A stretch of DNA of 64,000 nt. Origin: Aestuariispira insulae (GTDB lineage: Bacteria; Pseudomonadota; Alphaproteobacteria; UBA8366; Aestuariispiraceae). The position numbers were made by a program, and so were the translations under genes. The stretch lies in NCBI RefSeq assembly GCF_003385955.1, contig NZ_QRDW01000003.1, positions 248,001 through 312,000 of the forward strand. The letters run 5' to 3'. This document shows, one piece after another, positions 9,172-48,612 of this stretch; position 1 is the stretch's first letter; each line of letters begins with the position of its first letter. The notes beneath the pieces were generated by a model. That model saw only the letters and a list, made by a program, of their open reading frames with translations, did not search any database and was not told where the DNA came from.

Positions 9172-9813
9172 ATGGCGGTCGAGGCAAAAATCTGTGGCAT
9201 TAACGATCCCCAGGCGATGAATGCCGCCGTGCAGGCGGGGGCCGCCCATGTGGGGCTGGTGTTTTTTCCGCCGAGCCCGCGCGCGGTTTCGCCCCAGGAA
9301 GCGGCCATGTTGGCGGCCCGGGCACCGGCTTCGCTCAATCTGGTGGGATTGTTTGTGAACCCCGAAGACGGCCTGATCGACCAAGTGCTGGAGGCGGTGC
9401 CGCTGGATATCATCCAGCTGCATGGCAAGGAACCGCCCGAGCGCGTGGCTGAAATCCGGGCCCGGACGGGCCGAGAGGTGATGAAGGCGATCGGCCTGAA
9501 AAGCCGGGATGACCTGGCGGCGATCAAGGCCTATGAACCGGTGGTGGATTATCTGCTGTTTGATGCCAAGGCACCGGAGGGGGCCAAATTGCCGGGCGGC
9601 AATGCGGTGGCCTTTGACTGGACCCTGCTGGAAGAAAAGACTTGGGAAAAACCCTGGATGCTGGCCGGTGGCCTGACCCCGGCCAATGTGGCCACAGCGG
9701 TCAAGCTGACCCGCGCACCCTGTGTCGACACCTCATCCGGTGTCGAGGATGAGCCGGGGAAGAAAAACCCGCAATTGATCCGGGATTTCATCGGCGCGCT
9801 GCGCGGGCTTTGA
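9172..9813 (+). CDS. trpF: Phosphoribosylanthranilate isomerase
   Basis: Catalyses the Amadori rearrangement of phosphoribosylanthranilate in tryptophan synthesis. This TIM-barrel of about 213 residues opens with KICGI, whose cysteine is the general base, and contains GLVFFPPSPRAVS and LDIIQLHG. The acid aspartate is in LLFDAKA, and the phosphate loop is MLAGGLTP followed by VDTSSGVE. The start is the ATG at 9172; a GTG three bases earlier is equally possible. Tryptophan synthase genes lie 3 kb downstream, separated by the thiamine cassette. Confidence 0.95.
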   Translation: MAVEAKICGINDPQAMNAAVQAGAAHVGLVFFPPSPRAVSPQEAAMLAARAPASLNLVGLFVNPEDGLIDQVLEAVPLDIIQLHGKEPPERVAEIRARTGREVMKAIGLKSRDDLAAIKAYEPVVDYLLFDAKAPEGAKLPGGNAVAFDWTLLEEKTWEKPWMLAGGLTPANVATAVKLTRAPCVDTSSGVEDEPGKKNPQLIRDFIGALRGL

Positions 9814-9870
9814 TGATTGCTACAGCGCTGTCCCTCCGGAATCATGTCCGGGGGACGTTAATGGTGGGTG

Positions 9871-9899
9871 TTGACGCTCACTCTTCCCAGCATTAATTT
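9871..9899 (+). promoter_or_regulatory. Candidate promoter of the thiamine genes
   Basis: TTGACG (9871-9876), a 17-base spacer and TAATTT (9894-9899) lie directly before the TPP riboswitch. A transcript starting about seven bases later would begin just ahead of the aptamer, as expected. The -10 element is weak (three of six consensus positions). Confidence 0.5.
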
Positions 9900-9905
9900 T
9901 AAACC

Positions 9906-9987
9906 CATCACCGGGGGTGTTCGCGATTGGCGCGGGCTGAGAAATACCCCAGAACCTGCCCTGGGTAATGCCAGCGAAGGAAGCGTG
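9906..9987 (+). ncRNA. TPP riboswitch (THI element)
   Basis: The conserved parts of the thiamine-pyrophosphate aptamer occur in order: GGGGGTG, then GGGCTGAGA, ATACCCC, GAACCTG, and GGGTAATGCCAGCGAAGGAA. The last block includes a ribosome-binding AAGGA, so binding of TPP would probably hide this site and reduce translation, the common Gram-negative mechanism. No T-run terminator follows. The ATG served by that site (9992) opens a 35-codon frame, not thiO. Confidence 0.95.
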
Positions 9988-9991
9988 TTGC

Positions 9992-10099
9992 ATGTCTGAT
10001 ATTCATTTCCAGAAGAATCCGACCGAACCCTGCTGCCAGACGCATCTGCCCGGGCTTATTTGCCTGGGAGCGGTCGGGTGTCCAAAAACAAACATATAG
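9992..10099 (+). CDS. Short frame directly downstream of the riboswitch (35 codons)
   Basis: The ATG at 9992 sits nine bases after the AAGGA inside the riboswitch, the place normally taken by the first thiamine gene. The peptide (beginning MSDIHFQKNPTEPCCQTH) is cysteine-containing and unlike ThiC or any protein I know. It ends TAG at 10097-10099, overlapping the start of thiO by 22 bases in another frame. It may couple thiO translation to the riboswitch, or be the remnant of a lost first gene. Confidence 0.45.
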   Translation: MSDIHFQKNPTEPCCQTHLPGLICLGAVGCPKTNI

Positions 10100-11148
10100 C
10101 GATTATTGGTGCCGGTATTGCCGGTCTGATGACGGGGTTGAGCCTGTTAAAACGGGGCTATTCTGTGACCCTGTTCGAAGCGGGCGATGCCGGCCTTGAT
10201 CACAGTTGCAGCTTTGTGGCGGGCGGCATGCTGGCCCCATGGAGCGAGATGGAAAGCGCGGAAATGCGCATTCACCGCCTGGGCTGCCGGTCGATCGGCC
10301 TGTGGCGCGATCTGATGGACCGGCTTCCGGGCAGTCCCTTCTTCCGCGCGGACGGTACATTGATCGTGGCCCACGGCCAGGACCGGCCCGACCTGGAACG
10401 GTTCCGGCAGAGGCTGGATTTTGCCGGGCTGGGGGGAGAGATCAAAAATCTGCAGCCGGATCAGCTGGCCCGGTTGGAACCGGGCCTGGCCGACCGGTTT
10501 GAAAACGGTCTGCATCTGCCCCGCGAAGCCCAGATTGATCCTCGGAGCCTGCTGCCGGTTTTGATCGCCTATCTCAAACATCAGGGAGCGGCCTTTCATT
10601 TCAACCGGCCGGTCGATGCCCTGGCATTCGATCATATCCGCATTGAGGATGAGCGGCATGGCTATGACCGGGTGATTGATTGCCGGGGGCTTGCCGCCCG
10701 GGACTGCCAGCCTTTGCTGCGCGGCGTGAAGGGCGAGGTTGCGCTGATCCGCTGTGCGGATATGCGGCTCAAACGCATGGTGCGGCTGATGCATCCCCGC
10801 TATCCGATCTATATTGCGCCCCGGCCCGACCATCATTTTCTGATCGGCGCGACTTCCCTTGAGACAGAGGACAGGCGGGTGACCCTGCGTTCCACGCTGG
10901 AGCTTTTAAGTGCCGCCTATTCCCTGCATCCGGCCTTTGGCGAGGCGGAAATTATCGATATCCGCGCGCATTTGCGCCCGACCCTGCCGGATCACCGGCC
11001 CTGCCTGGAGGAACGCGACGGGGTGGTCCGTCTGAACGGGCTATACCGCCATGGCTATCTGATCGCGCCCGCTTTGGCGGAAGAGGCGGCGGATTTCGTT
11101 GAAACGGGCAGCCTGCCCCAAAACCCCTTGATGGAGGATGTGGCATGA
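10078..11148 (+). CDS. thiO: Glycine oxidase ThiO, thiamine biosynthesis FAD protein
   Basis: An FAD-dependent amine oxidase of the DAO family that oxidises glycine to the imine used to build the thiazole ring of thiamine. The dinucleotide-binding motif IAIIGAGIAGLMTGLSL lies within the first 25 residues, followed by TLFEAGD. The substrate domain ends RPTLPDHRPCLEERDG and YRHGYLIAPALAEE, typical of ThiO. I use the GTG at 10078, preceded by GGGAG; a TTG at 10060 is possible. It overlaps thiS by four bases (ATGA), so the two are translationally coupled. Confidence 0.93.
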   Translation: MSKNKHIAIIGAGIAGLMTGLSLLKRGYSVTLFEAGDAGLDHSCSFVAGGMLAPWSEMESAEMRIHRLGCRSIGLWRDLMDRLPGSPFFRADGTLIVAHGQDRPDLERFRQRLDFAGLGGEIKNLQPDQLARLEPGLADRFENGLHLPREAQIDPRSLLPVLIAYLKHQGAAFHFNRPVDALAFDHIRIEDERHGYDRVIDCRGLAARDCQPLLRGVKGEVALIRCADMRLKRMVRLMHPRYPIYIAPRPDHHFLIGATSLETEDRRVTLRSTLELLSAAYSLHPAFGEAEIIDIRAHLRPTLPDHRPCLEERDGVVRLNGLYRHGYLIAPALAEEAADFVETGSLPQNPLMEDVA

Positions 11149-47012: not shown

Positions 47013-48612
47013 ATGGCGGGAACAATGTCAGGGGCGGGCGCAAGCCTGCCCATTCTCATGCCGGTGAAGATGAAGCAGGTGTTGGGCGGCCTTTCCGGCT
47101 GGCGCAGTTGGCTTGCCGCTTTTGTCGCCGGGGCGTCCGCCACACTGGCGCTGCCACCGGTCAATGCCTGGCCGGTGCTGCTGCTGGCGATGCCGATCCT
47201 GATCTGGATGCTGCAGGGGGACAGATCCAGGAAATCATCTTTTGCCATTGGCTGGTGGTTCGGGTTCGGCTTTCTTGCCGCCGGCCTCTATTGGATCAGC
47301 CATGCCCTGCTGATTTTTTCGGACCGGCTTTTATGGATGGTGCCGTTTGCGGCGCTGGGTCTGCCCGCTTTTCTGGCCTTCTATTCCGGTGCGGTTGCGC
47401 TGGCCCTGCGCTGGTTTCGTCATCCGGTGATCCAGGTATTGGCTTTTGCGCCGCTCTGGGTCCTTGGGGAATGGCTGCGCGGTATGTTATTCACAGGATT
47501 TCCCTGGAACCTGATTGGCTATGCCTGGGCCGGGTCGGATATACTGATCCAACCTGCGTCTGTGGTTGGGGCATATGGTCTCAGTTTCCTGGTCCTTGTG
47601 ATGGCGGTTTTGCCGGCACTTTTGCCGCTGGTATCCCGCAGGGTTGGGGGGGGGCTTGCTTGGGTTGGTCATCTTGCTGCCGGTTATGGTATATGGATAT
47701 GGATTTTTGCGACTTGAAAATGCTAATTCCATAACAGAAACAACCAATGCGATATTACCGAATATGCGGATTGTGCAACCTGCAATTCCTCAAAAAGAGA
47801 AATGGGGATCCCGCTATCGGGCTAGAAACTTCGCCGACTTCCTGCAATTGACGCAGGCAGGGCGCGGTAATGGGATCCACACGGTTATATGGCCGGAAAC
47901 CGCCGCCGCATTTTTCCTTGAGGATATTCCGGAGGCCCGGCAGGCCATCGCGAGAGCGCTTCCTGAGGGCGGTGTTTTGATCACTGGTGCGCCGCGACGG
48001 GATACAGCCGCCGGCACAATCCATAATAGCGGACTCGTGCTGGATGCCGATGGCGAGGTGATCGAGGCTTATGATAAGTCGCACTTGGTGCCTTTTGGTG
48101 AGTATGTGCCTTTGCGTTCGGTGCTGCCGGTGGAAAAAGTGGCGCATGGCATGTCGGATTACACGCCGGGGCCGGGGCCCAGAACCATACATATTCCGGG
48201 TGTTCCACCCGTTAGTATCCTGATTTGCTATGAAGCGGTGTTCCCAGGCCAGGTGGTCAATGATGTTCAGCGCCCGAAATGGATGTTGAATTTGACCAAC
48301 GATGCCTGGTACGGCCGCACGGCCGGTCCCTATCAGCATCTTGCCATTGTCCGCACCAGGGCGGTCGAGGAGGGGTTGCCCATGGTTCGGGCGGCCAGCA
48401 CAGGCATCTCGGCAGTGTATGATTCCTATGGTCGGGAAATGGGGCGTCTGGCTCTGGAGCAAGCCGGATATCTCGATTTCGCTTTGCCGGAGCCGTTGGA
48501 AGAGGGCACCGTCTTTTCCCGGACGGGCAATGGATTGATGATCTTGCTAGTTGCTGCGATACTCGGAATGCTGGTTGTTGCTAATAACAGATTGGATTCT
48601 AAGCAATTATAG
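47013..48612 (+). pseudogene. lnt: Apolipoprotein N-acyltransferase, split by an apparent frameshift in a G9 run
   Basis: Together the two frames make a full Lnt, the inner-membrane enzyme that adds the third acyl chain to lipoproteins. The first frame (47013-47717) carries the membrane segments (GWWFGFGFLAAGLYWIS, GEWLRGMLFTGFPWNLIGYA). The second (from about 47644 to 48612) has the last segments and the nitrilase domain, with all three catalytic residues: Glu in IWPETA, Lys in YDKSHLVPFGEYVP, Cys in SILICYEAVFPG. The break is at nine Gs (47646-47654). Removing one G restores one continuous frame. A sequence error, slippage or a true mutation are all possible. Confidence 0.88.

Follow-up and report, generated by a model that had tools for sequence, protein, structure and literature searches.

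Within the 64,000-nucleotide stretch of the Aestuariispira insulae genome analysed here (the window), lnt, the gene for apolipoprotein N-acyltransferase, is spread over two overlapping reading frames that meet at a run of nine Gs. The question raised by this locus is whether the gene is truly broken in the bacterium, is read in some unconventional way, or is an ordinary intact gene miscounted by one base in the assembly.

The architecture of the split gene is as originally predicted. ORF A (47013..47717, plus strand), the 5′ part of lnt in frame 0, encodes 234 aa with helices H1-H6; it covers the Pfam LNT_N profile end to end (E 6.5e-34) and aligns with solved Lnt structures over residues 35-210. 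ORF B (47644..48612, plus strand), the 3′ part in frame 1, encodes 322 aa from a TTG codon and comprises H7, H8, and the nitrilase domain that in Lnt sits between them, with matches to CN_hydrolase (Pfam, E 2.6e-23), to TIGR00546 (222 bits, positions 129-394), and to Lnt in the PDB (E 4e-28; residues 216-485 aligned with 5n6m and 244-522 with 5n6h). Because the two frames cover successive parts of the solved Lnt chains, they are consecutive parts of the same protein. All three catalytic residues, the Glu, Lys, and Cys of the triad E295/K355/C405 (numbering of the joined protein), lie in ORF B.

The joint is a run of exactly nine Gs at 47646..47654 (plus strand), read and counted directly, and every other homopolymer in the window is shorter; frames 0 and 1 join there in place of the one continuous reading frame of an Lnt. 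Removal of one base from the run yields a single continuous frame of 532 aa. As the sequence stands, ORF A continues past the run for about 20 out-of-frame residues and ends at a TGA at 47715. Hydropathy places the joint between residues 189-207 and 214-232 of the joined protein, in the short H6-H7 loop of the eight-helix Lnt architecture (PMC5500888). Compared with the Lnt family (TIGR00546; LNT_N plus CN_hydrolase), all domains, the triad, and the strongly conserved positions are present, and the gene differs in that a single base of the G run divides it between two frames.

This is the only lnt in the genome, a 99.4% complete draft of 4.82 Mb in 49 contigs. A second intact copy, with which the original prediction would have given up its argument from essentiality, was sought genome-wide and is absent, the further TIGR00546 hits scoring 28-52 bits where the cut-off is 132.9. 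The alignment has 67 positions at which at least 95% of 74 homologues agree, and the split gene retains every one, 16 before the joint and 51 after it. A long-broken gene would have decayed, so a break in an otherwise undecayed lnt should have arisen very recently, be an artefact, or be suppressed at the level of function. The genome also carries lgt, lspA, and mutS.

A search for Lnt gave a match in 57 of 60 relatives and, in a sample of 192 genomes from the class, in 185; the other seven had no Lnt match at E<=1e-20, and five of these seven are small (1.2-1.7 Mb). Where an open-frame length is listed in the class sample, the lnt frame is at least 428 aa long, and a frame of 336 aa occurs in this genome only. 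The 60-relative set includes a few shorter frames (for example 260 and 300 aa), which apparently reflect short contigs or contig ends, as was checked for one of them (L014). Contig ends aside, no split lnt was found in any relative with a listed frame length. The G tract, for which the original prediction proposed a comparison with close relatives, is not conserved: the longest G run at the junction is six among 75 aligned relatives, and the closest aligned homologue (54% identity across the alignment) has four Gs there. At the resolution set by a closest aligned relative of 54% identity, the tract is, on sequence comparison, specific to this lineage. The seven genomes without an Lnt match (G083, G096, G113, G122, G136, G139, and G226) are nearly complete alphaproteobacterial genomes and may represent natural losses.

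A true knockout had been considered surprising on the grounds that Lnt is essential in many Gram-negative bacteria, an argument that finds no support here given the lipoprotein export system of this organism. One member of the LolC/E family exceeds the cut-off (C1:91081-92313, 422.6 bits; next hit 71.5), and it adjoins an ORF for a 226-aa ABC ATPase (L136) judged LolD-like by eye from its Walker A motif. A single LolC/E permease beside a LolD-like gene constitutes the LolF arrangement. Alphaproteobacteria carry LolF, lnt appears to be non-essential in LolF bacteria, and lnt mutants exist in the alphaproteobacterium Sinorhizobium meliloti as well as in Francisella, Neisseria gonorrhoeae, Acinetobacter, and H. 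pylori (PMC7240156). Judging from these other species, loss of Lnt should be survivable in this organism. Once essentiality is set aside, the locus can be explained by nothing more than an ordinary slip mutation or a miscount in the assembly. Among 14 relatives searched, 13 have one LolC/E member over the cut-off and one has two; in the latter, G008 of the same family, the two members lie side by side (C131:7822-9054 and 9745-10974) in an assembly that is 7% contaminated.

The reliability of homopolymer lengths elsewhere in the assembly bears directly on the choice between these two explanations. Genome-wide, 50 distinct G/C tracts of at least eight bases were located, with lengths of 8, 9, 10, and 11 in 39, 9, 1, and 1 cases; only 11 runs in 4.82 Mb reach nine or more, and long G runs fall about 4-fold per added base with no excess of long tracts. 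The reading frame around these tracts was tested with Pfam and counted as intact where a single open frame ran across the tract and recognised domains enclosed or flanked it. This test took in 21 other coding tracts, about half of all tracts lying between genes, close to a gene end, or where Pfam offers no support, and so outside it. All 21 are in frame, comprising 18 of eight bases (L036, L037, L039, L041, L042, L043, L044, L046, L051, L054, L055, L060, L115, L116, L120 with two, L123, and L127) and three of nine or ten, which lie in genes for pyruvate carboxylase (L118), Fe-S biosynthesis (L119), and a hybrid kinase (L048, C10). The break in lnt is the only clear one found among the tested G/C tracts, and none broken of 21 gives a 95% upper bound of about 14% on the break rate of such tracts. 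A general homopolymer problem in the assembly is unlikely; one isolated miscount is still compatible with this result.

Two further candidate breaks proved to be normal gene arrangements. At a G11 tract (L129), an in-frame membrane protein is followed by an overlapping macrodomain-like gene, and a G8 tract (L117) marks the normal end of a SixA-like phosphatase. The G11 run is the longest G/C run of the genome (L129 1501-1511; G000:C8:114337-114347) and, lying within a predicted membrane-protein ORF in frame, is a candidate mutable site. The C10 run (L048 1501-1510; G000:C1:1058311-1058320) occupies the receiver-Hpt linker of the hybrid histidine kinase, where a slip would remove Hpt.

The preferred explanation, to which about an even chance is given, is a recent +1 slip insertion in the lineage-specific G run of the single lnt, tolerated because Lnt is dispensable. 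It supposes that cultured cells do carry the ninth G, that they lack Lnt, and that they tolerate the loss. Slipped-strand insertion of one G in a mutable tract would have broken the frame recently, and the product in the sequenced clone would be a truncated H1-H6 fragment lacking the catalytic residues, with hardly any active Lnt or none at all. A LolDF-type exporter can probably pass diacylated lipoproteins, so that the cell would tolerate the loss, and the same run could revert at low frequency, not as a selected switch. The split of the only copy at G9, the LolF-type arrangement, the dispensability of lnt in comparable bacteria, and the seven class genomes without an Lnt match all fit a slip mutation; the other tracts' lengths look sound, and the full set of retained conserved positions points to recency. 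The insertion is favoured over its close rival, an assembly or sequencing miscount in which the tract really counts eight Gs and lnt is intact and unremarkable, a plausible reading with a lower probability. The miscount accords with two undecayed halves, with a draft in 49 contigs, and with an lnt that is intact in every relative of listed frame length, contig ends aside; the rarity of natural null alleles likewise favours error over insertion. The GeneTack survey regards unclustered frameshifts confirmed by homology as most likely sequencing errors or recent indels, and its authors expect the unclustered BLASTp-confirmed class to be sequencing errors (PMC3711429). The lnt tract is unclustered and unconserved, and the gene resembles such singleton frameshifted genes in having a homology-validated break in a single genome that is absent from relatives, but differs in that the break falls at an unusually long G run. 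What speaks against a miscount is the in-frame state of every testable tract elsewhere, a control that holds just three other coding G/C tracts of nine or more bases.

The original list of options (assembly error, transcriptional slippage, or phase variation) was the right one to weigh, yet slippage and a phase switch receive no positive support from an unshared tract, relatives without a split gene, and a base, G, that is unusual for slippage. Slippage of RNA polymerase (or the ribosome) at the run, restoring full-length Lnt in part of the product, is improbable: nine bases fall within the range cited for programmed realignment (eight or more) and the gene is undecayed, but indels of this kind mostly arise at A or T runs, the usual sites of programmed transcriptional realignment, and such programmed sites are under purifying selection (PMC3711429), whereas G runs at this place stop at six among the aligned relatives and no relative needs recoding of lnt. 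Slightly more doubtful is a phase-variation switch, reversible and under selection, that would turn lipoprotein triacylation on and off. Poly-G tracts of similar length are known to serve as contingency devices in Neisseria, Helicobacter, and Campylobacter, where as in lnt a G tract within the coding sequence sets the frame, and lnt is dispensable in comparable bacteria (PMC7240156). Against a switch, the tract is not retained in the homologous genes of relatives, its length here is known from one assembly, runs of nine or more are few and thin out with length, mutS is present, and lnt, as a housekeeping gene, is atypical of contingency loci. The broader proposal, in which contingency or slippage at the tract would set how much of the lipoprotein pool is tri- rather than diacylated, only some cells or transcripts yielding Lnt, is likewise unlikely. 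Least probable is a two-chain Lnt, in which ORF A (H1-H6) and ORF B (H7, nitrilase, H8) would be translated separately and then assemble. The short H6-H7 loop is a permissive place to split a membrane protein, but the only start of ORF B is a TTG in the context of the G run, 71 nt upstream of the ORF A stop, no well-spaced ribosome-binding site was seen for it by eye, and lnt is not split in any relative. Even when taken together, recoding, a switch under selection, and two chains remain unlikely.

If the break is real, the locus is a case of lnt having been lost naturally in an alphaproteobacterium with LolF, which fits the view that lipoprotein export by LolF makes Lnt dispensable; should the assembly be at fault, a routine annotation correction follows. 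General interest would arise only with a demonstrated switch, which would be an lnt switch in a free-living alphaproteobacterium. Elsewhere in the class, two alphaproteobacterial genomes each carry two strong Lnt homologues, G116 at C2:96083 and C6:162729 and G224 at C1:1065425 and C1:1750891.
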